A DNA stretch of 64,000 bases from Nocardia iowensis (GTDB taxonomy: Bacteria > Actinomycetota > Actinomycetes > Mycobacteriales > Mycobacteriaceae). The stretch is from contig NZ_CP078145.1 in the NCBI RefSeq assembly GCF_019222765.1, forward strand, positions 2,852,001 to 2,916,000, given 5' to 3'. Below are positions 42,673 through 57,312 of the stretch, piece after piece (position 1 is the first letter of the stretch; each line of letters starts with the position of its first letter). A model generated the notes under the pieces. The model worked only from the letters and a program-made list of their open reading frames with translations. It was not told where the DNA came from and made no database searches. The position numbers and the translations under genes were made by a program.

Positions 42673-45255
42673 ATGACGAATTCCACCACCCAGGCAGCGC
42701 CGCCGGGGGACGCGGTCGAGGGCACCGCACTGTCGCACCGGCAGATCATGACCATCCTGTCCGGCCTGCTACTCGGCATGTTCCTGGCCGCCCTCGACCA
42801 GAACATCGTGAGCGTGGCGATCGTGAAGATCTCCAACAGCTTGCACGGATTCGATGAACAGGCATGGGCCACAACGGCGTACCTGATCACCGCGACGATC
42901 ACCACGCCGCTGTACGGCAAGCTCGCCGATATCTACGGGCGTAAACCGTTCTACCTGACGGCGATCGGGCTGTTCATCATCGGCTCGGTCGCCTGTACCT
43001 TCGCCACCTCGATGTATCAGCTGGCCGGCTTCCGGGCGTTCCAGGGCCTCGGGGCTGGTGGCTTGATGTCGTTGGCGTTCACCATCATCGGCGATATCGT
43101 GCCCGCCCGCGAACGGGTGCGCTACCAGGGCTATTTCATGATGGTCTTCGGCACGGCCACCGTGCTCGGCCCGGTGCTCGGCGGCTTCTTCTCCGACTAC
43201 GACACCCTCGGCGGCATCGACGGCTGGCGCTGGGTGTTCCTGGTGAACGTGCCGGTCGGGGCGCTCGCCCTCACCGTGGTCGCCAAGGTGCTCAATGTGC
43301 CGCACCAGCGCCAGCATCATCGCATCGACTGGTTCGGCGCGGTGGCGCTGGCGGTCTGTGTGGTGCCGCTGCTCGTCGTCGCCGAGCAAGGCAGACACTG
43401 GGGTTGGACCTCGCGCCGGGCGTTGATCTGCTACGGCATCGGTGTGCTCGGCTTGCTGCTGTTCGTGCTCGTCGAGTACCTGATGAAGGACGCGGCGCTG
43501 ATTCCGTTGCGGCTGTTCAAGAGTTCGACCTTCAGCGTCACCATCGCGGGCGGCTTCATCGTCGGCATCGCCATGTTCGGCGCCATCACCATGGTTCCGC
43601 AGTACTTCCAAGTGGTGCGCGGGTTTTCGCCGACGAAGGCGGGCCTGCTGATGTTGCCGCTGGTGCTCGGCATCACCATCGGCTCGCAACTCGCGGGCCG
43701 GATCACCAAGAAGACCGGACGCTACAAGATCCTGCCGGTGGCAGGCACGTTCATCATCGCGGTGGGCGCGGCGCTGTACGCGCAGGTGCACTACGACAGC
43801 CCGCTGTGGCAGCCGCTGGCCTACGGCGCGGTGATCGGGCTCGGCCTCGGTGGCTGCATGCAGACGTTGATCATCGCGGCGCAGAACGCTGGCCCGCGGT
43901 CGGACATGGGCGTGTCCACCGCGTCGGCGACGTTCTTCCGGCAGATGGGCGGCACCCTCGGTGTCGCCGTGTTCTTGACAATTCTGTTCAACCTGTTGCC
44001 GCACAAGATCATCGACGCGTTCGGCGGCGAATTGCCGCCCGGCTTCGGCCCCGAGCAACTCAGTGCCATGCAGAGCAACACCAGCGGCATCGCGGACCTG
44101 CCCGAGCAGTTGCAGGTGCCGATCCTGACCGGCTTCACCGATGCCATGCACGGCGTGTTCTACGCCGCCGCCGGGGTGGCGCTGCTGGCCTGCCTGGTGC
44201 TGATGTTGATGAAAGAGATTCCGCTGCAGGATGATCCGGTACCCGCGGCTGCGCGGAAAACCCCGCCGGTGGTGGCGTCGAGCTGGGACGAGGATCAGGT
44301 CTGGGAGGGTGCCGCGCAGGTGCTCTCGGAACCGGAACCGGTGCTGGCAGGCGCCGTCGGCAGGCCCGCCCCGGTCGAGCACCACAGCAACGGCTCGCAC
44401 CAGTTCGCCACGGCGGCAGCCAGTTCCACGGTGACCGTGCTCGACTCGTCGGATGGCTTCGGCGAGTACGGCGAACGCGCGATCGGCGGGCACATCCGTC
44501 GCGAAGACGGTCGTCCGGTGCCCGGCGCCGCGCTCACGCTGATCGACCAGCGCGGGCATCAGGTGTCCCGGGCGACCGGAAATGTCGAGGGCCGCTACCT
44601 GATCGGCGTGCCAGAGACCGGCAGCTACGTGCTGATCGTCTCGGCGAATGGTCACCAACCCGCGGCCGTCACGGTCGCGGTCGGGCACGAGGCGCAGCAC
44701 ATCGAGCTCACCCTGCTCGGTTCCGGCGAGCTGTCGGGGGTGGTCCGGTCGGCCGGTCGCGGCACGCCGCTGCCCGGCGCGACCGTCACCCTGACCGACC
44801 CGCGCGGCGAAGTGGTCGGCACGGCCATCAGCGCCGCCGACGGCGCGTACACCTGCCACGGCATCGTCTCCGGCACCTACACAGTGGTCGCGATGGCCGA
44901 GCACATGCGACCCAGCGCAACCACGCTCACCGTCCCCGACACCGGTCTGCTCCGCCACGACATCGAGCTGGCCCCGATGGCCGTACTCACCGGCTCGGCC
45001 GTGACCGACGACGGCCGAGTGGTCCCGGACGCTCAGATCAGCATCCTGGACGCGACCGGCGACCTCACCGCGACGGCACGCACCGACGAGAACGGCCGCT
45101 ACGTCGTCAGTGATCTTTCCGAGGGGCGGTACACGGTCGTCGCCCGCGGTTACCCACCGGCCACCAGTCAGGTCACCGTCGCGGGCGGCGAGGTCGAGCA
45201 CGATGTGAAACTCGGCTACCAGCCCGACGATTCGCCGGATCAGACTCGGCCGTGA
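42673..45255 (+). CDS. DHA2-family MFS efflux pump with C-terminal carboxypeptidase-regulatory-like domains
   Basis: The product is 860 aa. Residues about 25-525 are a 14-helix drug:proton antiporter of the EmrB/QacA type (FLAALDQNIVSVAI, GKLADIYGRKPFYL, GWRWVFLVNVPVG). Residues about 600-850 are three consecutive beta-sandwich repeats of the carboxypeptidase-regulatory type, each with a G-x-V-x-D/S...P-x-P-G-A pattern and a terminal G-x-Y (DGAYTCHGIVSGTYTVVA, NGRYVVSDLSEGRYTVVA). Such domains usually lie outside the cell, whereas a 14-helix pump has its C-terminus inside. ATG 42673 has AAGGG upstream. Probably exports toxic hydrophobic compounds. Confidence 0.92.
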   Translation: MTNSTTQAAPPGDAVEGTALSHRQIMTILSGLLLGMFLAALDQNIVSVAIVKISNSLHGFDEQAWATTAYLITATITTPLYGKLADIYGRKPFYLTAIGLFIIGSVACTFATSMYQLAGFRAFQGLGAGGLMSLAFTIIGDIVPARERVRYQGYFMMVFGTATVLGPVLGGFFSDYDTLGGIDGWRWVFLVNVPVGALALTVVAKVLNVPHQRQHHRIDWFGAVALAVCVVPLLVVAEQGRHWGWTSRRALICYGIGVLGLLLFVLVEYLMKDAALIPLRLFKSSTFSVTIAGGFIVGIAMFGAITMVPQYFQVVRGFSPTKAGLLMLPLVLGITIGSQLAGRITKKTGRYKILPVAGTFIIAVGAALYAQVHYDSPLWQPLAYGAVIGLGLGGCMQTLIIAAQNAGPRSDMGVSTASATFFRQMGGTLGVAVFLTILFNLLPHKIIDAFGGELPPGFGPEQLSAMQSNTSGIADLPEQLQVPILTGFTDAMHGVFYAAAGVALLACLVLMLMKEIPLQDDPVPAAARKTPPVVASSWDEDQVWEGAAQVLSEPEPVLAGAVGRPAPVEHHSNGSHQFATAAASSTVTVLDSSDGFGEYGERAIGGHIRREDGRPVPGAALTLIDQRGHQVSRATGNVEGRYLIGVPETGSYVLIVSANGHQPAAVTVAVGHEAQHIELTLLGSGELSGVVRSAGRGTPLPGATVTLTDPRGEVVGTAISAADGAYTCHGIVSGTYTVVAMAEHMRPSATTLTVPDTGLLRHDIELAPMAVLTGSAVTDDGRVVPDAQISILDATGDLTATARTDENGRYVVSDLSEGRYTVVARGYPPATSQVTVAGGEVEHDVKLGYQPDDSPDQTRP

Positions 45256-45282
45256 TCGCTGCCTCGTCGTCGCGGGCATCGA

Positions 45283-45316
45283 CGCCCCTGCCGAATTGTG
45301 CTGCCCGGCAGGGGCG
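45283..45316. terminator. Bidirectional terminator
   Basis: A perfect 11-bp stem, CGCCCCTGCCG (45283-45293) and CGGCAGGGGCG (45306-45316), with a 12-nt loop lies between the convergent MFS and cyclotransferase-like genes. It has no T-run. Confidence 0.85.
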
Positions 45317-45322
45317 ATCGCG

Positions 45323-45964
45323 TCAGCCGGTGAGCAGGGCGGTGAGGGTGTCCGGGGTCCAGCCGAGATCGGCGCCTGGGCGGGTCGCCAGGTAGGTGGC
45401 GGTGACTTCGACGGTCCAGCCGTGCGATTCGATCAGACCGGCGGCCAGGTGGCGTAGATAGGTGGCCGACGGTGAGTTACCCGGAAGGTCGGTGTGCTGC
45501 CATGGCGCGGTGCAGGTGATGATCGGGTGGCCGTCGAATGTCCCAGCGCACGAGAGCGTTTCGTATCGACCCGGCCCGAGCGGCGCGCGGCCGCGGGTGA
45601 TCGCTTCGGTCAGATCCAGGTCAGTGCCGGGCAGTCGGTACATCTCCTGGGCGGCGATATCGGAGAACTGCGCCGTGGTGAGGAGATAGGCGCGGGCGGC
45701 GGTCCGGCCGGGCCCGTCCGGATCATAGAACGCCCGCCCGCCGGTCCACACCAGCGATTCGGTGGCGAAATACAGCACGCCCGGCAGCATGATCGGCACC
45801 GAGCGCGCGGGCTCGGCCGGATCGCGGCAGCCGGGCACCGCACGCGCGCCACCCTCGGGTGTGCCGCCCGCGAGGTAGCACCGCAGCCGGCTGAGGTGCA
45901 TGTTCGACCCGTACGCCGCGTACCAGACCAGGCCCGTTGCCCGGCCATCGCCGTTATCGGTCAC
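45323..45964 (-). CDS. Gamma-glutamylcyclotransferase-fold protein
   Basis: A 213-aa protein that begins with the family hallmark YAAYGSNMHLSRL (substrate-binding YGS loop). The region ITRGRAPLGPGRYETLSCAGTFDG follows, but the usual catalytic Glu is not obvious by eye. GGCT-fold enzymes split gamma-glutamyl amines or related amides. Some actinobacterial members are annotated as histone deacetylases by error. GTG start 45964. The next gene upstream on the same strand is a methyltransferase, 24 bp away. Confidence 0.75.
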   Translation of the reverse strand: MTDNGDGRATGLVWYAAYGSNMHLSRLRCYLAGGTPEGGARAVPGCRDPAEPARSVPIMLPGVLYFATESLVWTGGRAFYDPDGPGRTAARAYLLTTAQFSDIAAQEMYRLPGTDLDLTEAITRGRAPLGPGRYETLSCAGTFDGHPIITCTAPWQHTDLPGNSPSATYLRHLAAGLIESHGWTVEVTATYLATRPGADLGWTPDTLTALLTG

Positions 45965-45988
45965 CCCACCATCTTGCCGCCGGAGACG

Positions 45989-46654
45989 TCAACTCCGCTG
46001 GAACACCGCCCGCCACCGCGGATAGCCGGGCTGTCCGGCGGGGGCTACCTGCTCGACGCGGATCGGCTGGAGACCGTCGCGGGCGAACGCGTCGATCTCG
46101 GCTCGGGTGAGTGGCCACGGCGGGCCGTCGATCTGCTCGCCGTCCGCGCGGATACCGGCGATGACCAGCAGATCGCCACCGGGGGCCACCAGCCGCGCGA
46201 CGTTCGCGGTCGCGTCGGCGCGCAACGACACCGGCAGTGCCTGCACGGTGATCGACTCCACGACCAGGTCGAACGCGCCGAGCCACGCGGCGGGCGGATC
46301 GAGCAGATCGGCCACCACGTAATTCACGCTGGACGACGGAAAACGTTCTCGCGCAACCTTTATCGCGGTCTCGGCGATATCGAACGCGGTCGTGTCGAAG
46401 CCGAGCCCGGCAAGATGCTCGGCATCGCGCCCCAACCCGCAGCCGACCACCATCGCCCGCATCCCGCCGCCCACCCGTTCATGCCGCTCCAGCCAATCGA
46501 CCAGCAATGGATTCGGCTCGGCGGCATCCCACGGCACCACCGCCGCGCCGTCGGCCGCCGCCACGTACAACCGCTCGAACCAGCCGGTCGGATCACCTTG
46601 CGCCAGCGAATCAGCGGCAAGCTGGTTCGCATCCGCATTACGAGAATTGGTCAC
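45989..46654 (-). CDS. Class I SAM-dependent methyltransferase, TPMT-like
   Basis: A 221-aa methyltransferase of the thiopurine/thiol type: the WFERLYVAA start resembles the W-x-x-R segment of that family, followed by motif I AMVVGCGLGRDAEHLAGLGFDTTAFDI and a motif II-like FDLVVESITVQAL. Homologues methylate small thiols or halides; the substrate is unknown. It may be co-transcribed with the downstream cyclotransferase-like gene (24 bp gap). Confidence 0.85.
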   Translation of the reverse strand: MTNSRNADANQLAADSLAQGDPTGWFERLYVAAADGAAVVPWDAAEPNPLLVDWLERHERVGGGMRAMVVGCGLGRDAEHLAGLGFDTTAFDIAETAIKVARERFPSSSVNYVVADLLDPPAAWLGAFDLVVESITVQALPVSLRADATANVARLVAPGGDLLVIAGIRADGEQIDGPPWPLTRAEIDAFARDGLQPIRVEQVAPAGQPGYPRWRAVFQRS

Positions 46655-46705
46655 CGCGCGAGTCTGTCAGGCGCCTCCGGCGACCGCACGACGAGGATCA
46701 GCAGG

Positions 46706-47497
46706 TCATGGTTTGCGTGCGACGGCGCCGTATGAGTACACCGACGTGGTCGCGCCAACAAAGATGTCGGCGCGCCACTCGGTGATCTCCACGAAGCCGG
46801 GCTCGACCATTTCCAGGCCCTCGAACGCCGCCTTGATCTGCGTGGCCGGGCGCGGGTTGTAAGGCACGGCGCCGGTCTTCGCGTACTCCTCACAGAGTTT
46901 CACGAATGCCTTGTTCTCATCCGAGGTGTCCCACAGGGTGAGGTAGCTGCCGGACGGCACCGCGTCCAGCACCGTGCGCACGATGCGCTGGGACTCTTCG
47001 AACGAATCGGCATGGCCGAGCACGCCCATGAACATGACGCCGACCGGCAGATCGAAGTTCAAGATGTTCTCGGCGTCGGCGATGATCTGCTCCGGCCGGT
47101 GGATATCGGAATCGACGTAGGTCGTGACGCCCTCGCGGGTGGTGCTGGTCAGCAGCGCACGAGCGTGGGTGAGCACGAGCGGGTCGTTGTCGACGTAGAC
47201 GACCTTGGCGTCCGGTGTGATTTCCTGAGCGACCTGGTGCGTGTTCTGCATTGTCGGCAAGCCGGTGCCGATATCGAGGAACTGTTTGATGCCTTGGTGG
47301 GCAACGAAACCCACGGTGCGGATCAGGAACTGCCGCGACTGCACAGCCATCGTCCGAATGTCGGGATAGATCTCCAAACTTTTGTCGCCGACGATCTGGT
47401 CGATCTCGTAATAGTCCTTGCCGCCCATCCAGTAATTCCAGATGCGGGCCGAATGTGGAACGTCGGTGCGGATCAATGTGCCGCGCTCTTCGGACAT
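46706..47497 (-). CDS. SAM-dependent methyltransferase, DUF574 (PF04672) type
   Basis: A 263-aa protein of a family expanded in Streptomyces and Nocardia: VPHSARIWNYWMGGKDYYEIDQ at the start, SAM motif QFLDIGTGLPTMQNTHQVAQ and VVYVDNDPLVLTHARALL. Substrates are mostly unknown. ATG 47497 is chosen because GAGGAG precedes it; the longer frame is Arg/Cys-rich and not credible. It is divergent from the HxlR gene; the shared operator 47672-47692 lies 175 bp upstream of this start, so co-control is possible. Confidence 0.9.
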   Translation of the reverse strand: MSEERGTLIRTDVPHSARIWNYWMGGKDYYEIDQIVGDKSLEIYPDIRTMAVQSRQFLIRTVGFVAHQGIKQFLDIGTGLPTMQNTHQVAQEITPDAKVVYVDNDPLVLTHARALLTSTTREGVTTYVDSDIHRPEQIIADAENILNFDLPVGVMFMGVLGHADSFEESQRIVRTVLDAVPSGSYLTLWDTSDENKAFVKLCEEYAKTGAVPYNPRPATQIKAAFEGLEMVEPGFVEITEWRADIFVGATTSVYSYGAVARKP

Positions 47498-47671
47498 GAT
47501 GTGGACTCCTCGGCAGTAATCGGGTCTATGACGAGTCCGCAGCACGCACCCACATCGCACCGCGTCCAGGGTCAGCTATCTGGTCCCCGACGGTACAAGG
47601 TTCAACCCGGTCAGGAGGGTGGGATGGCGAGGAAATACCGTGTCGATCGACGGGGTATCAGTCGGGCAGGT

Positions 47672-47692
47672 TCCACTACAGTTAATGAAGTG
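47672..47692 (-). promoter_or_regulatory. HxlR-type operator, copy 1
   Basis: This 21-bp sequence is exactly the reverse complement of 48723-48743. It starts TCCACTACAGTTAATGAAGT. It is an imperfect dyad of the form CACTnCAnTnAnTGnAGTG and lies 37 bp before the ATG of the tandem HxlR gene. Its presence on both sides of that gene makes it the probable autoregulatory site. Confidence 0.75.
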
Positions 47693-47729
47693 CTACTAGA
47701 TGACCGAAGAGCTGGAGGGGTGCGAGCGA

Positions 47730-48677
47730 ATGGCAACTGAGTCGACCGGCACCGGGCAACCCGCCACGCACCCCGTCGCGGCCACTTTCGACCTGCTCGG
47801 CGACCGCCTGACGCTGACCATCCTTCGGCACGCTTTCGTGAACCGCACCCGCCGGTTCAACCAGTGGATCGAACGCACCGGCGCTCCGCCCGCCGTGCTC
47901 ACCGCGCGCCTCGCCGCCCTGGTCGACGCGGGCGTGCTGGTCCGGACGCCGCAGCCGGGATCGCCGGACCGCTTCGACTACCTGCTGACCGAGCTGGGCC
48001 TGGCGACCTGGGAAATCCTGGTTTCCGTGTGGGGCTGGCAGCGTGCGTGGACCGCCGAGGGCGCGCTGCATCCGGACCTGGTGCACGGCGCGTGCGGACA
48101 TCGGGGACCGCCGGTGCTGATGTGCCGCGGCTGCGGCCGCACGGTGACTGCCCGCGATACCGAGGTCGACCTCGGCGACGATGCGTTGTGGCGCTTCACG
48201 TCCAGTGGCCGGCGCCGCGCCCGTGCCGCCGTTTCCGCGCATACCGATATGCAGTTCGATGAGGTGATGGCCGCGATCGGGGACCGCTGGAGCGCCACCG
48301 TGACGGGTCTCGCGCTGGCCGGTGTGCGGCGGTTCAGCGCGTTCCGCGCGGCCATGGACATGTCACCGACCACCCTGACCGAGCGACTGTCCCGCCTCTG
48401 CGACGCCGAGATCCTGCGCCGGTCCGGTACTGGATCCGGCCGCGAATACCGGTTGACGCCGCGCGGGCGGGCGCTGTTCGCGATATTCGCTTTCCTACTC
48501 GCCTGGTCGGAGCTGGCGCATCCAGGAGCGCCCGAACCGGGCCTGCGCATCCGGCATCGCGAATGTGGTGCGGTGCTGGTGCCCGCGTTGCGTTGTCGTG
48601 GCTGCGATGCCCGGCTCGAGCGCACCGATGTCCGGTTCGAACCGGTGTCGCGGGCCGTACTCGACCGCCTCGCCTGA
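47730..48677 (+). CDS. Tandem-duplicated HxlR-type transcriptional regulator with two zinc ribbons
   Basis: The product is 315 aa, built of two copies of the same module. Module 1 has an HxlR winged helix at residues 15-105 (FDLLGDRLTLTILRHAFVNRTRRFNQW) and a ribbon with His119, Cys122, Cys132, Cys135. Module 2 has an HxlR domain at 175-265 (AAIGDRWSATVTGLALAGVRRFSAFRAAM) and His276, Cys279, Cys289, Cys292. Normal HxlR proteins are about 110-150 aa and dimerise; this chain is a covalent pseudo-dimer. ATG 47730 has GGAGGGG about 10 nt upstream. Identical operators flank it, so it probably represses itself and the oxygenase operon until a ligand binds (inference). Confidence 0.9.
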   Translation: MATESTGTGQPATHPVAATFDLLGDRLTLTILRHAFVNRTRRFNQWIERTGAPPAVLTARLAALVDAGVLVRTPQPGSPDRFDYLLTELGLATWEILVSVWGWQRAWTAEGALHPDLVHGACGHRGPPVLMCRGCGRTVTARDTEVDLGDDALWRFTSSGRRRARAAVSAHTDMQFDEVMAAIGDRWSATVTGLALAGVRRFSAFRAAMDMSPTTLTERLSRLCDAEILRRSGTGSGREYRLTPRGRALFAIFAFLLAWSELAHPGAPEPGLRIRHRECGAVLVPALRCRGCDARLERTDVRFEPVSRAVLDRLA

Positions 48678-48696
48678 GGCGTCCCACCAGGCATCC

Positions 48697-48743
48697 TTGA
48701 CACTTCTGGCTGAGACGCGTATCACTTCATTAACTGTAGTGGA
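48697..48743 (+). promoter_or_regulatory. Promoter and operator copy 2 of the carotenoid oxygenase operon
   Basis: A consensus -35 TTGACA (48697-48702), 17-bp spacer, and TATCAC (48720-48725) form a sigma-70-type promoter. The 21-bp operator CACTTCATTAACTGTAGTGG plus A (48723-48743) covers the end of the -10 element and the expected start point near 48732. A protein bound there would block initiation. The ribosome site GGAGG begins at the operator edge, 10 nt before the GTG. Confidence 0.85.
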
Positions 48744-48754
48744 GGTGGTAAGAC

Positions 48755-50215
48755 GTGACGCTCAAGGAAGAACTCATCGCACCGGCCGCGCAAGCGCTGA
48801 CCAACCCGTATCTGGCGGGCCCGTACGCCCCCACCGCCGCGGAGGTCACCGCGACCGACCTCGCCGTGCTACACGGCGAACTGCCCGCCGATCTCGATGG
48901 CGTCTATGTGCGCAACGGCCCGAACCCGCAATTCGCGCCGATCGGTCGCTACCACTGGTTCGACGGTGACGGCATGCTGCACGCGGTGCATTTCGAGAAC
49001 GGCAAGGCCACTTACCGCAACCGCTTCATTCGTACCACCGAGTTCGCGGCCGAGCGCGCCGCCGGAACGGCGTTGTGGCGCGGTGTGATCGAGCCGTGGG
49101 ACGACAACCCGCCGGGCGATCGCCGGGAACGCAACTCCGCCAACACCGACGTCGTCTTCCACCATGGCAACCTGCTGGCACTGTGGTATCGCGCGGGCAA
49201 ACCGTATGCGCTGGACCCGATCAGCCTGGAGACCCGCGGTGTCGACACCTTCGGCGGCACACTGCCCGGTGAGGTCTCCGCACATGCCAAAGTCGATGAG
49301 CGCACCGAGGAATTCATCTTCTTCGACTACGGCATCCATGCGCCGTACCTGCGCTACGGCGTCGCCGACCCGTCCGGCAAGGTCACCCATTACACGGGGC
49401 TCGAGTTGCCCGGTCCGCGGTTGCCACACGACATGGCGATCACCGAGAACTACTCCATCCTGATGGATCTGCCGCTGTACAACGACCCGAAAGCCGCTGC
49501 GGCGGGCCGGTTCAAGCTGTTCTTCGACCGCACGCTGCCGAGCCGTTTCGCGGTGTTGCCCCGGCTCGGCGACGGCGCGCAGGCGCGCTGGTTCGAGGCC
49601 GCGCCCGGCTACATCTATCACACGGTCAATTCCTGGGAGGACGGCGACGAGATCGTCATGGTGGTCTGCCGGGTGTCGAAGCCGAGCCCGGTGTCGGACC
49701 GCACCAACCCGCTTGCGCAATTGCTCGCCTACCTCCGTCCCGAGGCGACACTGCACAGGTACCGCTTCAATATGCGGACCGGCGCCACCATCGAAGAGGC
49801 CATGGATGACGTCAATACCGAGTTCCCGGCCATCGATCAGGGCACAACCGGACAGCGCGGCCGCTGGTCGTATCAGATGCGGCTGTCGGTGGACAGCACC
49901 ATGCTCTTCGACGCGGTGATCAAGTACGACCTGCACACCGGCGCCAAGCAGACCCAGCCGTTCGGCGACGGATTCTTCGGTAGCGAACTCACCGTAGTGC
50001 CACGGCCGGATCCGCGCGACGAGGACGACGCCTGGCTGACCATGTTCGCGTTCAACAGCCACACCCAACTGTCCGAGGTCTGGATCTACGACGCCGCCGA
50101 CCTGGCCGCAGGACCCGTCTGCCGGCTCGGCCTGCCGGTCCGCGTGCCGCTCGGTTTCCACGCCACCTGGGTCAGCGGAGACCGGATGCGCGCGGCCGCA
50201 GAGCCGGTCGAGTGA
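48755..50215 (+). CDS. Carotenoid oxygenase family protein
   Basis: A 486-aa non-haem iron(II) dioxygenase of the carotenoid/lignostilbene cleavage family. The four iron-binding histidines are His177 (VSAHAKV), His225 (RLPHDMAI), His289 (YIYHTVN) and His469 (GFHATWV); VRNGPNPQF and HWFDGDGMLHAVHF are typical N-terminal blades of the propeller. It cleaves a conjugated double bond to two carbonyl products. Whether the substrate is an apocarotenoid, stilbene or phenylpropene cannot be told. GTG 48755 follows GGAGG. It is first in an operon with an LLM oxidoreductase, two thiolases and an acyl-CoA synthetase. Confidence 0.95.
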   Translation: MTLKEELIAPAAQALTNPYLAGPYAPTAAEVTATDLAVLHGELPADLDGVYVRNGPNPQFAPIGRYHWFDGDGMLHAVHFENGKATYRNRFIRTTEFAAERAAGTALWRGVIEPWDDNPPGDRRERNSANTDVVFHHGNLLALWYRAGKPYALDPISLETRGVDTFGGTLPGEVSAHAKVDERTEEFIFFDYGIHAPYLRYGVADPSGKVTHYTGLELPGPRLPHDMAITENYSILMDLPLYNDPKAAAAGRFKLFFDRTLPSRFAVLPRLGDGAQARWFEAAPGYIYHTVNSWEDGDEIVMVVCRVSKPSPVSDRTNPLAQLLAYLRPEATLHRYRFNMRTGATIEEAMDDVNTEFPAIDQGTTGQRGRWSYQMRLSVDSTMLFDAVIKYDLHTGAKQTQPFGDGFFGSELTVVPRPDPRDEDDAWLTMFAFNSHTQLSEVWIYDAADLAAGPVCRLGLPVRVPLGFHATWVSGDRMRAAAEPVE

Positions 50216-51219
50216 GCGCCCCTGCGCAGATGGGTACGACAGATCACCTGCTGAGCGTCAGCCTGCCCTATTGGCAGGACCGGGATCCGTTGGATGCCCT
50301 CGCTGTCGCCGAAGCGGCCGAGAAGCTCGGCTATCACCGGCTGTGGGTCGGGGAGATGGCGACGTTCGACGCCTTCGCCGTGGCCACCGCGATCGGCCTG
50401 GCCCCGGGGCGAATTCCGTTGTGCGTAGGGCCACTGGCCGTCGATGTTCGCACTCCGGCCACCATCGCCATGGGGGTCGCGAGTGTGGCCGCGCTCACCG
50501 GCCGGTCCGTCGATGTCGCCATCGGCAGCTCGAGCACCGTCGTGGTGAGCGGCTGGCACGGTCGGGAAAGGCGCAGCACCGCAGTGCATCTGGCGGAGTC
50601 GGCCCGCATCCTGCGCGGCCTGCTCGCGGGCGAGAAGGTCGAATTCGAAGGTGCGGTGGAGCGCACCGCCGGCTACCGCCTCCGGCTGGCGCCGCCGCAC
50701 TCATCGATCACCGTCGCCGCCTTCGGTGCCCGCGCCTTGGCCGCGGCCGCCCGGACCGCTGATCGTGTGGTGCTGAACTTGGTTACCCCAGAACAGGTTT
50801 CGCGGTGCGCCACATTGGTGCGCGAGGCGGCCGATCGGGCGAACCGTCCGACTCCCGCGATCGCGGTCTGGGTCACTGCCGCCGCCGACCCGACAGCCGA
50901 CCTGCTCGCCAGTGTTCGCCGCGGCGCCGTGGGATACCTGCGCGCACCCGGCTACGACGCCATGTTCGAGGAGGCGGGATTCGGCGAGGTGGTGCGGCTG
51001 GCGCGCAGCGGCGCACATCCGCGCGAAGTCCTGGTTGCGGTGCCCGACGAATTACCTGCGGCCGTAGGCATGTTCGGCGACGAAGCGGCACTGGCCCGCC
51101 GACTGGACGCGTATCGCCGGGCGGGTACCGACGAAATCGTCGTCGTGCCCGCCACTTCGGCCGAGGACCCGGCGGGCCACCACACACTCGATACCCTCGC
51201 GCGGCTCGACCATGCCTGA
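50212..51219 (+). CDS. LLM-class (luciferase-like) flavin or F420-dependent oxidoreductase
   Basis: A 335-aa TIM-barrel protein of the luciferase-like monooxygenase superfamily: LAVAEAAEKLGYHRLWVGEM near the start, GRSVDVAIGSSSTVVVSGWHG in the middle and RAGTDEIVVVPATS at the end. Members use FMN or F420; in Nocardia both are available. It may oxidise a cleavage product of the oxygenase (inference). Start GTG overlaps the oxygenase stop (GTGA) and the stop overlaps the thiolase start by 8 nt. Confidence 0.88.
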   Translation: MSAPAQMGTTDHLLSVSLPYWQDRDPLDALAVAEAAEKLGYHRLWVGEMATFDAFAVATAIGLAPGRIPLCVGPLAVDVRTPATIAMGVASVAALTGRSVDVAIGSSSTVVVSGWHGRERRSTAVHLAESARILRGLLAGEKVEFEGAVERTAGYRLRLAPPHSSITVAAFGARALAAAARTADRVVLNLVTPEQVSRCATLVREAADRANRPTPAIAVWVTAAADPTADLLASVRRGAVGYLRAPGYDAMFEEAGFGEVVRLARSGAHPREVLVAVPDELPAAVGMFGDEAALARRLDAYRRAGTDEIVVVPATSAEDPAGHHTLDTLARLDHA

Positions 51220-52396
51220 CGCCTACATCTACGACGCGATCCGGCTGCCCCGCGCCCGGGTCCGCAAGGCTGGGGGCACCCTCGCCGAGATCGCACCCTA
51301 CGAGTTGTTCGGGCAACTGCTCCTCGCCCTCGAAAGCCATTCGATCAGTGCGGATTCCATCGACGACATCCTCGTCGGCATCAGCACCACGGTGGGGGAG
51401 CAGGGCGGGAACCTTGCCCGCGCGGCGGCGCTGTGGGCGGGCTGGCCGGACCGGGTCCCCGGTGGCGTGGTGTCCCGGTTGTGCTGTTCCGGCCTCGACG
51501 CGGTCGAGAGCGCCGCCGCCAGAGTCGCCGCGGGCTACGCGGACGTGATCGTGGCGGGCGGGGTGGAGTCGATGTCCCGGGTGCCGATGCTCTCGGACCG
51601 GCCCGCCATCGCCACCGACGCCGATCTCGGCGAACGCACCGGGTTCGTCACGATCGGCGTATCCGCCGATCTCACCGCGGCGTCGTCCGGCATCACCCGT
51701 GCCGAACTCGACGCCTACGCCGTGCGCTCCCACCAGAAGGCCACCGCCGCACCGACTTCGGCGTCCGTGGTGCCGTTCCGCAAGGGCGGCACGGTGCTGC
51801 TCGACGCCGATGAGGGCGCCCGCGCGGACGCGAGCAGCGCCGCCTTCGCCGCGCTGCCCGCCCTGTTCGGCGACGATCCCGCATGGCAACGGGTGGCCCG
51901 CCGCCTGCCCGGCGCACCGCGCCCGGCGGACGGGCTGCACACGATCGCGACCGCGCCGCAGCTCGCCGACGGCGCCGCTGCCGTGGTCGTCGGCGGCCGC
52001 CGTGCGCAGGGGGTGCTCGGACGGCAGCCGATCGCCAGGATCGTCGGCACCGCACAGGCCGCGGTCCGCTCGCCGCTGCTCACCGCCCCGGCCGCCGCGG
52101 CGCGGCTGGCACTCGACCGCGCGGGCCTCGCCGCCGCCGACCTCGACGTGGTGGAAGCCAACGAATCCTTCGCTGTCACACCGATTCTGCTCGCCAGGCA
52201 GCTCGGCATCGATCCGGAGCTGGTCAACCCGTCCGGCGGCGCCCTCGCGGTCGGCCACCCCCTCGGGGCGACCGGCGGCAACCTGATCGTCCAAGCGCTC
52301 GACGCACTCGAGCGCACGGGCGGCGAACACGCGCTGGTCACCATTCCCGCGGCCCTCGGGCTCGGGTCTGCGGTGGTGCTGCGGCGCTTGAACTGA
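51212..52396 (+). CDS. Thiolase family protein with altered second active-site cysteine
   Basis: A 394-aa protein with the fold of thiolase I/II. The acylated Cys is in VSRLCCSGLDAV near residue 90, NESFAV and GGALAVGHPLGATGG (active-site His) are present. The final C-x-G-x-G motif is replaced by PAALG (about residues 379-383 in VTIPAALGLGSAV), so the general-base Cys is lost. Normal thiolysis or condensation may be impaired or changed. It overlaps the LLM gene by 8 nt and precedes the acyl-CoA synthetase by 10 nt. Confidence 0.9.
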   Translation: MPDAYIYDAIRLPRARVRKAGGTLAEIAPYELFGQLLLALESHSISADSIDDILVGISTTVGEQGGNLARAAALWAGWPDRVPGGVVSRLCCSGLDAVESAAARVAAGYADVIVAGGVESMSRVPMLSDRPAIATDADLGERTGFVTIGVSADLTAASSGITRAELDAYAVRSHQKATAAPTSASVVPFRKGGTVLLDADEGARADASSAAFAALPALFGDDPAWQRVARRLPGAPRPADGLHTIATAPQLADGAAAVVVGGRRAQGVLGRQPIARIVGTAQAAVRSPLLTAPAAAARLALDRAGLAAADLDVVEANESFAVTPILLARQLGIDPELVNPSGGALAVGHPLGATGGNLIVQALDALERTGGEHALVTIPAALGLGSAVVLRRLN

Positions 52397-52406
52397 AGGA
52401 ACGCGT

Positions 52407-54155
52407 ATGCCCGAGTCCCCGACCCCCGCAGGTGTTTCCCCTTCTGAAGAGCGGGCGTCTGTGTACGTTTGTCATCCTGCCGAGAAAGTGCGCGAGTACC
52501 TCGAGCGCGGTTGGTGGCAACCCGACACACTGACGGAGCTCTTCCAGCGCCGAGTCGACGCCGCGCCGGACGCGCCCGCCATCTCGGACCCCGCCAACCT
52601 TGCCGCGTTGACCCGAGCCGAACCCCAGACCATGTCCTGGCGTGAGCTCGACGAGTACAGCGGCGGCCTCGCGGCAGCCCTGTACCGCAACGGGATCCGC
52701 CAAGGCGATACCGTCGCAATCCTGCTACCGAATTCGATCGCGTTGACCGCCACCTACTTCGCGCTGTGGCGACTCGGCGCGGTCGCGACGCCCATGCCCG
52801 CCTCCTACCGCAGGCATGAGCTGTCCGGCATCGTCACCGCCGCCGAGGCGACAGCGATCGTCACCACTGGCGAGCTGTCGGGACGTGAACTCGCCCGCGA
52901 AGCGCTGGCCGTGGCGGGCAACGAAGGCACCGTGTTCGCTTTCGGTCCTGGAGTGCCGGATGACGCTGTCCCGCTGGACGACTCGGTATCCGCCGCCGAC
53001 CGGGAGCGGCTGCGGACCTACGTTCGAGGACTGACCGTTTCGGTGAACGACCGCGTCACCATCTGCTGGACCAGCGGGACAGAGGCCGCACCCAAGGGAA
53101 TTCCGCGGTGTCACGGGGACTGGGTGGCGATGGGGTGGGGCGTGCAGGACGGCCTGCACATCACCCCGGAGTCGGTGCTGCTCAACCCATTTCCGATGGT
53201 GAACATGGCAGGCTTCGCGGCGTCGTTCCTGCCGTGGCTGCTCGTCGGCGGGCATCTCGTGCAACACCAGCCGCTGGATCTCCCCGTGTTCCTCGCTCAG
53301 ATCGCGCGCCACCGGGTGACGCACACCAGCATGCCGCCCGCGCTGCTGACGATGCTGCTGCACAACGAGGCATTGCGCGCTTCGGTGGAGCTGTCCTCGC
53401 TCCGGCGCGTCGGTTCCGGTGGTGCGCCGCTGCCGCCGAGCGTGGTTCGTGGCTGGCAGGAAGAGCTCGGCATCGAGGTGCTCAACTTCTTCGGCTCCAA
53501 CGAGGGCGTGTGCCTGCTCGGGGCGCCAATAGATTTCCCCGATCCGGTCATCCGCGCGCAATACCTGCCGCGATATGGCGCGCCGGGCGTCCGCTGGTCC
53601 ACCCGCCTGGCCGAGAGCACCAGGGTCAAGCTCGTCGATGTCGGCACCGGTGTGACGGTGACCGAGGTCGGCGGGACCGGCGAACTGCGGCTGGCGGGGC
53701 CCGCGGTGTTCGGCGGCTATCTGCCGGGAACCGCGACGTCCGAACCGTTCGACGAGGAGGGTTTCCTGTGCAGTGGAGACGTTTTCGAGCTGTGTGGCGT
53801 GGATGGCCGGTATCTGCGTTTCGTCGACCGGATCAAAGAGATCATCATCCGCGGCGGCATGAACATCGCCCCGGCCGAGATCGAGGGGCTGCTTGCCGAT
53901 CACCCCGGCGTCGCCGACGTGGCGGTGGTCGGCTACCCGGATCCGGTGCTCGGCGAAAAGTGTTGTGCCTTCGTGGTTCCCGCACCCGGCCAGGCAGTGA
54001 CATTGGCGGACCTGATCGAGCATCTGCGCGCTCGCGAGGTGGCGTCCTTCAAATTGCCGGAGCGGCTGGAGATCGTCGAGACGCTGCCCCGTAATCCGGT
54101 CGGCAAGCTGTTGCGCCGCGAATTGCGGGCGACATTGCGCACCGACGAGATCTGA
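52407..54155 (+). CDS. Acyl-CoA synthetase (AMP-forming)
   Basis: A 582-aa ANL-superfamily adenylating enzyme. The A3 P-loop-like motif is ICWTSGTEAAPKGIP, A5 is NFFGSNEG, A7 has FLCSGDVFE, A8 RFVDRIKEIIIRGGMNIAPAEIE and A10 NPVGKLLRREL with the catalytic Lys. It activates a carboxylic acid to its CoA thioester, probably the acid derived from the oxygenase product. The relaxed A3 (TEAAPKG rather than TGxPKG) is uncommon. AAGGAA precedes ATG by 6 nt. Confidence 0.93.
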   Translation: MPESPTPAGVSPSEERASVYVCHPAEKVREYLERGWWQPDTLTELFQRRVDAAPDAPAISDPANLAALTRAEPQTMSWRELDEYSGGLAAALYRNGIRQGDTVAILLPNSIALTATYFALWRLGAVATPMPASYRRHELSGIVTAAEATAIVTTGELSGRELAREALAVAGNEGTVFAFGPGVPDDAVPLDDSVSAADRERLRTYVRGLTVSVNDRVTICWTSGTEAAPKGIPRCHGDWVAMGWGVQDGLHITPESVLLNPFPMVNMAGFAASFLPWLLVGGHLVQHQPLDLPVFLAQIARHRVTHTSMPPALLTMLLHNEALRASVELSSLRRVGSGGAPLPPSVVRGWQEELGIEVLNFFGSNEGVCLLGAPIDFPDPVIRAQYLPRYGAPGVRWSTRLAESTRVKLVDVGTGVTVTEVGGTGELRLAGPAVFGGYLPGTATSEPFDEEGFLCSGDVFELCGVDGRYLRFVDRIKEIIIRGGMNIAPAEIEGLLADHPGVADVAVVGYPDPVLGEKCCAFVVPAPGQAVTLADLIEHLRAREVASFKLPERLEIVETLPRNPVGKLLRRELRATLRTDEI

Positions 54156-54187
54156 CGAACCGACACCGACGACATGCAGGAGTGCTG

Positions 54188-55423
54188 ATGTCCCCCACCA
54201 CCATTCACCTACTCGGCGGCAGCCAGACCGATTTCGCCGTCAACTGGCACCGAGACGGCAAGGGCTTCGACGCCCTCATCGAGGTGGTAGTCGCGCAGAC
54301 CCTCGCGGCCACCGGTATCGCTCCGGACGAGATCGGCGTGATCCACCTCGGAAACGCGTTCGGCCAGTTGTTCACCGGCCAGGCGCAGCTCGGCGGCATG
54401 CCCGCCACGGTCGTGCCCGCGCTGTCGGGTGTCCCGGCGGGCAGGCACGAAGCTGCCTGCGCCTCCGGCAGTACCGCGCTGCTCGCCGCGATGGCCGACC
54501 TGGAATCCGGCCGCTACGACTGCGCGCTGGTGATCGGCGCGGAGTTGGAGAAGACCGTGCCCGGTGCGGTGGCCGCGGAATACCTCGGTGCCGCCGCCTG
54601 GGTCGGTCACGAGGCGGTGGACACGAAGTTCGTGTGGCCCAGCATGTTCGCCGCGGTCGCCGACGAATACGACCGGCGCTACGGCCTCGACGACGCGCAC
54701 CTGCGCGCGATCAGCGAGCTGAACATCACCAATGCGCGCACCAACCCGCTTGCGCAGACCAGAAATTGGACATATGGCCCGGACAGCTTCGGTGCCGACG
54801 ACACCGCGAACCCGCCGGTGGTCGGTCGGCTGCGCCGCCAGGATTGCAGTCAGATGACCGACGGTGCCGCCGCCCTGATTGTCGCATCCGACCGATTCTT
54901 GGCGCGGCGCACCGACTTACGACCCGATACACGGGCGGTGATCACCGGCTGGGGTCATCGCACCGCGGGCCTGCCGTTGGCGCAGAAGCTGCGCGCCTCC
55001 GCCGATGAACCGTATGTGTTTCCGCACGTGCGACAGACGATGCTGGACGCGCTGGGCCGGGCCGGGCTGCCCGATATCGACGCGGTGGACGGCGTTGAGG
55101 TGCACGACTGCTTCTCCATGTCCGAGTACATGACAATCGACCACCTCGGCATCACCGGACCCGGCGAAAGCTGGAAGGCGGTGGAAGGCGGTGACATTGC
55201 GCGTGACGGCCGCCTGCCGCTCAATCCCGGCGGCGGACTGATCGGCGGTGGCCATCCCGTTGGCGCGACCGGCGTACGCATGGTGCTCGACGCCTACAAA
55301 CAGGTCACTGGGCAAGCGGGAGCCTACCAAGTGCCGGGGGCACATCGATTCGGCACCCTCAACATCGGCGGGAGCGCCACGACCACAGTGAGTTTCATCG
55401 TGCAGAGCGCGACAGGCCCGTGA
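54188..55423 (+). CDS. SCP-x-type thiolase
   Basis: A 411-aa thiolase-like protein of the sterol-carrier (SCP-x/lipid-transfer) branch. The nucleophile is in EAACASGSTALLAAM, VEVHDCFSMSEY is the branch-specific motif, and GGGHPVGATGVRM holds the active-site His. The C-terminus NIGGSATTTVSFIV lacks the second Cys, as is usual in this branch. ATG 54188 has AGGAG 6 nt upstream. It is last in the operon and differs in class from the thiolase two genes before, so the pathway probably has two separate C-C cleavage steps (inference). Confidence 0.9.
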   Translation: MSPTTIHLLGGSQTDFAVNWHRDGKGFDALIEVVVAQTLAATGIAPDEIGVIHLGNAFGQLFTGQAQLGGMPATVVPALSGVPAGRHEAACASGSTALLAAMADLESGRYDCALVIGAELEKTVPGAVAAEYLGAAAWVGHEAVDTKFVWPSMFAAVADEYDRRYGLDDAHLRAISELNITNARTNPLAQTRNWTYGPDSFGADDTANPPVVGRLRRQDCSQMTDGAAALIVASDRFLARRTDLRPDTRAVITGWGHRTAGLPLAQKLRASADEPYVFPHVRQTMLDALGRAGLPDIDAVDGVEVHDCFSMSEYMTIDHLGITGPGESWKAVEGGDIARDGRLPLNPGGGLIGGGHPVGATGVRMVLDAYKQVTGQAGAYQVPGAHRFGTLNIGGSATTTVSFIVQSATGP

Positions 55424-55641
55424 TAGTGAAGGCATAACGTTCCTGATTTCGTGTTTCCGCTACCTCGCCGCGACAGACCGTGCGGCCTGTTCGAAGACCT
55501 GCTTGTGGACATGCCGCAACGCGCCGCATTCACCCGGCAAATCGACACTTTTCGCTGGCAACGGTGCGTCGATGGGGAATGCGATGTAGCCTTCCCACGC
55601 GTGATCACTTGTCTGCCATCGAATCTCCTCCTGGAGCCGAA

Positions 55642-57312
55642 ATGACCATCCAGCATCCCATTGAGGACGAGGTCACACAGCTGGCTAGGCGGGTCGAGAA
55701 GGCCCGCGGCCGGCTGGCATACCAATTCGATCCCGCGTTGACCGAAGCGCTCTCCGAGGACGAGCTGCTAGCCGAACGTGAGCTCGCCGAGAAGATTCGC
55801 GGGCAAGACCGTGGTCAGCGCTGGAAAGAGGCCCAAGCCGCCGCTGCGGCGGCCGACCGCGCCAGGCAGACCACCGAAGCGATCGAGAAGGCCGACATGC
55901 GAGATCTACTGGTGGCACGCAAGGCAATTGCCGCTCAGCGCCGTGAGTCGAGCCCGCATGCCAAATTGGCCTCGCTATATCGGCACCGGGCCTGGTCGCT
56001 GCGCGCGCTGGCCGGTGTCGTCGGCGCGGGCATGCTGTGGTCCGCGGTCAATGTTCAGCACAACATCGCGCCCGGTGGGCCGAGTGATCCGCTGTACTGG
56101 TTCAGCTACCTGCTGGAGGGGATGATCAGCGTCTGCCTGATCATCATCATGATCGGCACGAACAAGGTTGCCGAATGGGGTGTCGTCGACAACCGCAAGC
56201 AGGTGGTCGCCGCCGAGGTCGCGCTGCTTTCGCTGACCGTCACCCTCAACACCTACCCGTATCTGCGGGCCGAGCATTGGTACGACGCCGCCGTGCATGC
56301 CGTCGCGCCGGTGATGATCGGTGTCGCGCTGCTCATCCACGACGCCGCCAGCGCGCGCTACGGCCTCGCCATTCACCGCGCCACCGAGCAGGTCCGCGAC
56401 CTGCCCGATCCGGCCGAGCAGATTCGCCGCACGCTGCCCGCGATCGCCAGCTATCGGCTGCGCCGCTCGGCCGCCGAGGTGATGGCGTCCAGTTCGATTG
56501 CCGAACTGACCGTCGAGGCCGAACCGGACCCGCTCGCGGAATTGGACGCGGGACCGACCAACGAGCCCGTGGTGGACCCCGAGATCGAACCGGCGGTGGT
56601 GCTGCCCGAAGACGAGGACGCCGCGTCCGAAAGTCCTCGGGTTCGGTCCGCTTTCCGTTCCGCCGCGCCGGTGGCGCCGCCGAAGGCCGCGGCGACGGTG
56701 AGCTCGGTGAACGGTGCCGCCGATGTCAAGGCCGAGGCGGGGCCCTTGGTAAAGACCGAAAAAGACACTGCGCCCAGCACTTCCGAGCGCAAGGCCGCGA
56801 CACCGGTGCCCGCCGATGAGCCCGTCACGGCCACCGTCGCGAAGAGCGCGCCGATTGTGGCGAAGACCAAGTCCGGCGCTCCCGCGAACGCCGAAAAGCG
56901 CAGCACGCCTGCCGATGTCGACGGGAAGAAGCCTGTTTCGGCGAGCACCGCCAGCGCACCGGCAAAGCCCGTCACCGAGGCGGCCACCAAGGTCACCTCG
57001 ACCAAGGTCGCTGCTGAGCCAGCCGCACCCGCGAAGACCAGCAAGCCCGCCGCCCCGGCACCCGCCGACAAGCTCACCGTGCCGTCGGCGGAACGGCAGA
57101 CCGCATCCGCGCCGACCGCTGCCGTCAAGCGACCGGCCGTGACCGAGGAAAAGGCGGAAGCCCCGGTCATCCCGACTCCGGAAATCCACGACACCGGCCA
57201 GTTCCGCATCGCCGAAATCCTGGAACAGGAACTCGCCGAACTCCAGGCGGCACGGCGACGCGCCCGCACCAGCCGCAAGACGTCCACTCCCGCGGCGAGC
57301 CGCGACCGGTAG
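55642..57312 (+). CDS. Multi-pass membrane protein with long Ala/Pro/Lys-rich tail, unknown
   Basis: A 556-aa protein. Residues 1-105 are charged and helical (a likely coiled coil with ERELAEKIRGQDRGQRWKEAQ). About four membrane segments follow at 119-139, 151-172, 188-206 and 216-234, with polar loops between. Residues 270-520 are a low-complexity Ala/Pro/Lys/Thr/Val tail and residues 525-556 form a basic helix (ELAELQAARRRARTSRK). The membrane part reminds me of proteins on actinobacterial conjugative elements (SpdB/DUF2637 style), but no transfer gene is near, so this is weak. CCTGGAG precedes ATG. Function unknown. Confidence 0.75.
   Translation: MTIQHPIEDEVTQLARRVEKARGRLAYQFDPALTEALSEDELLAERELAEKIRGQDRGQRWKEAQAAAAAADRARQTTEAIEKADMRDLLVARKAIAAQRRESSPHAKLASLYRHRAWSLRALAGVVGAGMLWSAVNVQHNIAPGGPSDPLYWFSYLLEGMISVCLIIIMIGTNKVAEWGVVDNRKQVVAAEVALLSLTVTLNTYPYLRAEHWYDAAVHAVAPVMIGVALLIHDAASARYGLAIHRATEQVRDLPDPAEQIRRTLPAIASYRLRRSAAEVMASSSIAELTVEAEPDPLAELDAGPTNEPVVDPEIEPAVVLPEDEDAASESPRVRSAFRSAAPVAPPKAAATVSSVNGAADVKAEAGPLVKTEKDTAPSTSERKAATPVPADEPVTATVAKSAPIVAKTKSGAPANAEKRSTPADVDGKKPVSASTASAPAKPVTEAATKVTSTKVAAEPAAPAKTSKPAAPAPADKLTVPSAERQTASAPTAAVKRPAVTEEKAEAPVIPTPEIHDTGQFRIAEILEQELAELQAARRRARTSRKTSTPAASRDR

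Follow-up and report, generated by a model that had tools for sequence, protein, structure and literature searches.

We found that the gene for a fused, double-HxlR regulator in Nocardia iowensis stands between two oppositely oriented copies of one 21-bp sequence. Comparison with related genomes suggested that this regulator, predicted to be a built-in dimer, probably represses both a carotenoid-oxygenase operon and its own gene through these two oppositely oriented, asymmetric operators of 19-21 bp. The DNA analyzed, hereafter the window, is a stretch of 64,000 nucleotides (contig NZ_CP078145.1), and all positions refer to it. The presence of two sites flanking a tandem regulator, observed in an earlier note on this DNA, was confirmed, and the interpretation that the note gave to the regulator and its motif was supported by the sequence comparisons described below. 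The sites and the regulator gene are arranged as follows.

47672-47692, + strand: operator 1 (predicted), 21 bp, upstream of the regulator gene; read along that gene it is CACTACAG...TGAAGTG; proposed from its sequence and its conservation beside orthologues
47677-47682, + strand: TACAGT within operator 1, predicted -10 element of the regulator promoter; unchanged in all 26 Nocardia-type site-1 sequences
47730-48677, + strand: tandem-HxlR regulator, 315 aa when read from the ATG at 47730; the open frame begins at the ATG at 47700
47757-48179, + strand: N-terminal HxlR winged-helix and ribbon module, approximately residues 10-150; ribbon residues H119, C122, C132 and C135
48243-48647, + strand: C-terminal HxlR winged-helix and ribbon module, approximately residues 172-306; ribbon residues H276, C279, C289 and C292
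48723-48743, - strand: operator 2 (predicted), exact inverted copy of operator 1, over the -10 element and predicted start of the enzyme operon

The sequence at 47672-47692 is TCCACTACAGTTAATGAAGTG, and when read directly, that at 48723-48743 proved to be its exact reverse complement, as had been claimed; the match between the copies does not extend beyond the 21 bp on either side. Across the genome (8,948,074 bases in a single contig), the 20-mer CCACTACAGTTAATGAAGTG was detected within 3 mismatches at just these two places, and the same 20-mer read backwards, which served as a control, gave 0 matches. Written as a dyad, CACTnCAnTnAnTGnAGTG, the site showed 0 mismatches to both copies and, within 3 mismatches, no other match in the window. 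At least two matches to this loose 3-mismatch dyad occurred in 18 of 100 shuffles of the window, a weak chance test; the count alone is therefore not improbable, and the weight rests on the exact identity of the copies. Such identity is found in the window and is not general, relatives mostly having the core in common. An inverted-repeat operator near the controlled promoter is a mark of the HxlR family, and the predicted operator agrees with it, being a conserved imperfect dyad over the -10 element and start.

That the regulator carries two HxlR-plus-ribbon modules in one chain was borne out by Pfam, a predicted structure model and a module tree. The HxlR profile (PF01638) scored 77.5 bits against a cut-off of 20.8 and matched two stretches of the chain, which places the protein in this family. 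Typical members are single-domain, homodimerizing chains; here two modules share one 315-aa chain and the fusion is conserved, so we filed the protein as a fused variant and not as a typical HxlR member. No MarR model of Pfam or NCBIfam scored above its cut-off, HxlR alone passing its own; the MarR-named model RrpB reached 40 bits of the 175 needed, and the fold is common to MarR proteins. Behind each winged helix comes an H-x2-C...C-x2-C ribbon of the type seen in PA1607 and PA1374. All eight ribbon residues were invariant in an alignment of 37 sequences extending down to 31% identity, and in a wider alignment one row (L084) deviated in the first ribbon. The ribbons are expected to bind zinc. 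The single-chain structure model had a mean pLDDT of 90.2 and was weakest at residues 151-180; since structure searches compare single chains, its pTM of 0.88 is the one figure that bears on the predicted geometry of the built-in dimer. The nearest solved structures were those of the single-module proteins PA1607 (2f2e) and PA1374 (4gcv), with matches running through the ribbon, and the closest regulator in the protein database was from Nocardia brasiliensis (97% identity). In a tree of modules from the window protein, 19 loci and 5 single-module proteins of the same genome, the 20 N-terminal modules fell on one side of a branch and the 20 C-terminal modules on one side of another (support of 100/99 each). 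The simplest reading is that one old duplication and fusion took place and that both modules were kept and diverged.

In HxlR (Cys11) and in YodB, the sensor cysteine lies near the start of the winged-helix domain. Neither module of the window protein has a cysteine before the helix-turn-helix, and it is the ribbons that hold the invariant cysteines; the protein thus lacks the feature that defines the redox-sensing DUF24/YodB subgroup, a sensor cysteine near the start of the winged helix. The absence of this cysteine of the family speaks against redox sensing, and we lowered that reading. As a separate observation, in Prescottella defluvii SampleD3_15 (L079:8001-8885) the regulator gene appeared to be frame-broken in its first half, and both operator sites were present.

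The earlier note had proposed a search for the motif near orthologues of the regulator, and in most close orthologues the motif was found in both expected places. Orientation was counted in 43 of 76 loci, those with at least 58% identity (L040-L081 and L085; 670,930 bases, both strands searched). With up to 2 mismatches there were 78 matches: 37 upstream of the regulator, all in the + orientation, 39 downstream, all in the - orientation, and 2 elsewhere, in L072 and L075. The reversed pattern and three mononucleotide shuffles each gave 0 matches at this threshold, and with up to 3 mismatches they gave 2 and 5, respectively, versus 87 true matches. Two loci, L072 (Rhodococcus qingshengii) and L075 (Rhodococcus sp. 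1168), had neither site at the expected places, and gene order was changed there. In these rearranged clusters, one site was found about 4.9 kb beyond the start of the regulator gene; that of L072 was about 0.1 kb past the acyl-CoA ligase gene. For the analyses of site sequences and promoters, the window was added to the 43 loci (44 sequences), and only sites that had the expected orientation and no more than 3 mismatches were accepted. Site 1 was thus found in 42 of 44 sequences and site 2 in 41, the latter being missing from L059 (contig end), L072 and L075. In L064, site 2 was ahead of an aldehyde dehydrogenase gene. A second arrangement characterized the Rhodococcus-type loci (Rhodococcus, Prescottella, Gordonia and some Nocardia): in 14 of 18, about 1.3 kb separated site 1 from the regulator downstream of it, and the site was on the side of a divergent acyl-CoA ligase gene and the thiolase gene that precedes the regulator.

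Thirty-three tandem-HxlR loci were more distant (L082-L084 and L086-L115), and 24 of them had no 19-mer within 2 mismatches of the site. This is as expected if their operators diverged, a point followed in Amycolatopsis only. The other nine loci, all from Amycolatopsis (L086, L087, L090, L093, L094, L099, L103, L108 and L111), had a 19-mer with up to 2 mismatches 2.3-2.6 kb downstream of the regulator start. This similar site, CACTTCnGTCACTGTGGTG, is at about 10.3-10.6 kb in the coordinates of the loci; two frames beside it in L086 had no Pfam match.

The earlier note described the site as a near-perfect dyad. Seven of nine pairs do match and an imperfect dyad is present, but the term polar, asymmetric operator fits the site better. 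Of the two non-matching pairs, one (positions 5/15) was conserved as a mismatch: among 83 site sequences (42 of site 1 and, reverse-complemented, 41 of site 2), A was found at position 5 in 83 and at position 15 in 80, counts that are somewhat favorable to asymmetry since the pattern used to pick the sites was itself asymmetric and tolerated 3 mismatches. In a palindrome, one of these positions would have to be T. Sites 1 and 2 show the same asymmetry despite facing in opposite directions with respect to regulator and operon, and it is thus not accounted for by promoter elements alone. An alignment of 23 Amycolatopsis loci showed two conserved, partly similar stretches between the divergent oxygenase and regulator genes. 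The first, ACTATGATT..TGTA followed by GTC in 11 of 23 loci and by CCC in 12, lies within a TTGACA-N17-TAGT promoter towards the oxygenase, whose -35 element was exact in 21 of 22 matched loci. The second, ..CTTC......TGTAG, continued with TC or CC in all 22 matched loci, L086 being outside the pattern. It appears that the TGTAG part of one half was partly kept and that the other half differs more. This pattern would fit two separately evolving modules, the stretches themselves being putative operators by their resemblance to the site.

The second copy covers the -10 element and predicted start of the promoter that had been described before the oxygenase operon, TTGACA (48697-48702)-N17-TATCAC (48720-48725), and both elements were found as stated. 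The promoter and the operon comprise the following features.

48697-48702, + strand: TTGACA, predicted -35 element of the enzyme-operon promoter; TTGAC is conserved before second sites
48720-48725, + strand: TATCAC, predicted -10 element, overlapped by operator 2; TATCAC in 25 of 25 Nocardia-type promoters
48755-50215, + strand: carotenoid-oxygenase (RPE65) family enzyme, first gene of the operon (PF03055, 444.5 bits)
50212-51219, + strand: F420-dependent LLM-class oxidoreductase (TIGR03841, Rv3093c family)
51212-52396, + strand: thiolase (domain and family profile matches)
52407-54155, + strand: acyl-CoA ligase, AMP-binding (domain and family profile matches)
54182-55423, + strand: second thiolase, PRK06289-type (domain and family profile matches)

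The relatives of the oxygenase in the PDB were carotenoid, apocarotenoid and lignostilbene enzymes. Elsewhere in the window, at 42676-45252, an MFS transporter (PF07690) ends in three carboxypeptidase-regulatory-like repeats (PF13620, three stretches).

TTGAC was present 25-27 bp before the site in 41 of the 41 second sites found. In the Nocardia-type promoters (n=25), TGAGACGCGTATCACTTCATTAACTGTAGTG was conserved in 23 to 25 of 25 sequences at each position except one (19 of 25). Just before operator 2, at 48711-48722, the sequence TGAGACGCGTAT was kept in 24 or 25 of the 25 Nocardia-type promoters per position; this stretch is more conserved than a spacer should be, and a second factor or an extended -10 element may read it. 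In the 14 of 18 Rhodococcus-type loci, site 1 was part of the same array towards the ligase gene, with a TTGC-type -35 element, an operator in the same orientation (mostly TACTTCAATAACTGTAG), a purine-rich stretch and the ATG start codon. At these enzyme promoters the operator turns its CACTTCA half to the -10 element and its CTGTAG half to the gene. A protein on such a site would cover the -10 element and start, an arrangement suggestive of repression.

Repression is not the rule throughout the family, HxlR itself being an activator, and the regulator might instead activate the operon by reshaping or recruiting polymerase at a promoter with a poor -10 element. We consider this unlikely. HxlR of Bacillus subtilis is described as a positive regulator (PMC7835342), and the promoters do combine a strong -35 element with a poor -10 element (TATCAC in Nocardia-type and CTTCAC-like in Rhodococcus-type loci). 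However, the site overlaps the -10 element and start, and site 1 in 14 of 18 Rhodococcus-type loci stops immediately ahead of the ligase gene's likely ribosome-binding site; a protein bound in such a position would obstruct polymerase. Besides, a repressor of the same family, YodB, works through an inverted repeat, TACT-N7-AGTA (PMC8063818).

With the regulator acting as a repressor, one chain would occupy each operator, each module reading one half. A chain at site 2 would block polymerase at the -10 element and start and turn the operon off, and a chain at site 1 would limit synthesis of the regulator itself and, in Rhodococcus-type loci, also of the divergent ligase. Release might be brought about by a pathway intermediate, possibly a CoA thioester formed by the acyl-CoA ligase. 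The model for this step is CouR of Rhodococcus jostii, a local repressor of a CoA-dependent pathway that is released by a CoA thioester (PMC4737184). CouR comes from a related genus and shares local control of such a pathway; it differs in belonging to the MarR family, in being a dimer of chains and in controlling other genes. It is quite unlikely that two chains occupy both sites simultaneously, with the regulator gene looped out in between. Most loci do have two sites per cluster, about 1 kb apart in the Nocardia type, but the spacing varies (about 2.3 kb between sites in the Rhodococcus type), and promoter reasons account for both site positions too.

Control of the regulator's own gene was examined through its promoter and start codon. 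The ATG at 47730 is likelier to be the start than the in-frame ATG at 47700, which is possible; a putative ribosome-binding site, GGAGGGG, is found at 47714-47720. Site 1 ends in a GTG. Of 27 sequences examined, 14 had this GTG in the reading frame of the regulator, the window not being among them, and TACAGT is located 7 bp before the in-frame GTG. In nine loci (L046, L048, L049, L052, L053, L055, L056, L062 and L081) there was no other start codon between this GTG and the upstream in-frame stop, and in four of these nine the stop was 18 nt away. Judging from the sequences, most of the nine loci are thus likely to produce a leaderless mRNA, a single stretch of 17 bp combining operator, -10 element, start site and start codon. 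A later ATG may well be used in L046, and later start codons are possible in some other loci. Leaderless transcripts account for 33% in Corynebacterium glutamicum (PMC5401885). By eye, no conserved -35 element was found before site 1 in Nocardia-type loci, and autoregulation is therefore less sure than control of the operon.

Many bacterial repressors are symmetric homodimers on palindromes, in which the halves of protein and site cannot evolve apart. For the window regulator we tentatively propose a polar repressor, a reading that is possible but falls short of probable. Its fused, diverged modules would read the operator directionally, the same module always facing the -10 element of the enzyme promoter, and the operator would be flipped at the regulator's own gene (in a Nocardia subclade, one 17-bp sequence serving as operator, -10 element, transcription start and leaderless GTG). 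The half-sites would then evolve separately, each with its own module.

The site, the regulator and the oxygenase were also compared across genomes of the genus. The regulator was found at E 1e-40 or better in 44 of 150 genomes, 41 of them with close orthologues; G024, G102 and G117 had relatives of 34-39% only. The pattern STACAGTTANTGAAGTG, with up to 1 mismatch, was detected in 41 of 148 genomes, including 40 of 41 with a close regulator and 1 of 107 others (G076); in the 41st close-regulator genome (G035), both sites were present at 2 mismatches. At up to 1 mismatch, 72 of 74 matches were at the regulator or oxygenase gene. The two stray matches, that in G076 and a third match in G042, were not near the genes of the window. 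The same pattern read backwards gave 8 matches in total in these genomes. The second site of G148 was located on a different contig, about 45 bp upstream of the start of the oxygenase gene. The oxygenase itself was found in 42 of 148 genomes, the 41 with a close regulator and G024, which had a distant regulator only and no site. Since close regulator, oxygenase and site occur together in this sample, the genomes cannot tell which factor reads the site, nor separate cause from linkage. The genus genomes and the named loci overlap in species, and members of both sets are related by descent; some loci come from one strain (L058 and L074) or one species (L067 and L079), so the samples are not independent.

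Another transcription factor, encoded elsewhere, could in principle read the site, given that binding by this regulator is itself a prediction and that the neighborhood comparison covered just 11 window genes and would not reveal other conserved regulators. This is very unlikely: of the 107 genus genomes that had no close regulator, 106 were devoid of the site at up to 1 mismatch, and among the 11 proteins around the site that were scanned with Pfam, two of which had no match, this was the sole regulator found. Exact inverted 21-bp repeats around one gene might also suggest the ends of a mobile or invertible element, a reading that we rejected as having almost no probability, because the sites change in sequence yet keep their place, register and orientation across many species, Rhodococcus-type sites flank a thiolase gene as well as the regulator, the genome itself has no second copy of the site pair, and no transposase or recombinase was found among the 11 proteins (42676 to 57309, Pfam; two without a match).

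Repression by the fused regulator, which we prefer, can be compared with several known systems. PA1607 (PDB 2f2e) and PA1374 (PDB 4gcv) of Pseudomonas aeruginosa have one HxlR-plus-ribbon module per chain, whereas here two diverged modules are fused; their PDB entries describe them as putative transcription factors only. The HxlR protein of Bacillus subtilis whose structure with DNA was solved (PDB 7bzg) is a single-domain chain and a formaldehyde sensor acting through Cys11-Lys13, and was crystallized on the palindrome CAGTATCCTCGAGGATACTG (PMC7835342). YodB, a DUF24/HxlR-type repressor, prefers its inverted repeat with one helix-turn-helix per major groove (PMC8063818). It resembles the present case as a repressor with an inverted-repeat site, repression being predicted here, and differs in being a homodimer on a palindrome and a thiol sensor, where the window protein is a fused pair on an asymmetric site with no cysteine at the module starts. 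Among the literature matches listed (open-licence PMC papers), none described a fused, tandem or pseudo-dimeric HxlR regulator, and none an HxlR regulator of such an oxygenase/CoA operon. What appears to be new here is the conserved asymmetry of the dyad, the two separate module groups and, in a Nocardia subclade, the GTG within the operator as a likely leaderless start. A fused, diverged pair with a conserved, asymmetric and oriented site offers a clean system for studying how direction arises in a dimer, how modules and half-sites are matched, and what effect operator orientation has relative to the promoter. The motif is also ready for use in annotating an uncharacterized oxygenase/CoA-pathway cluster and its regulator in many actinobacteria.

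The fusion had been regarded as an unusual arrangement. The two-module chain is real, but tandem HxlR proteins are common in actinobacteria, so the fusion is less unusual than first thought and not unique. A tandem-HxlR match at 1e-40 or better was found in 52 of 301 genomes of the family, representing 10 of 31 genera, and relatives of the regulator were present in Amycolatopsis, Streptomyces, Planotetraspora, Actinomadura and one Chloroflexi bin. One genome had four tandem-HxlR genes (G064:C1:99169-110682 and 250807-251709), two of them less than 2 kb apart.
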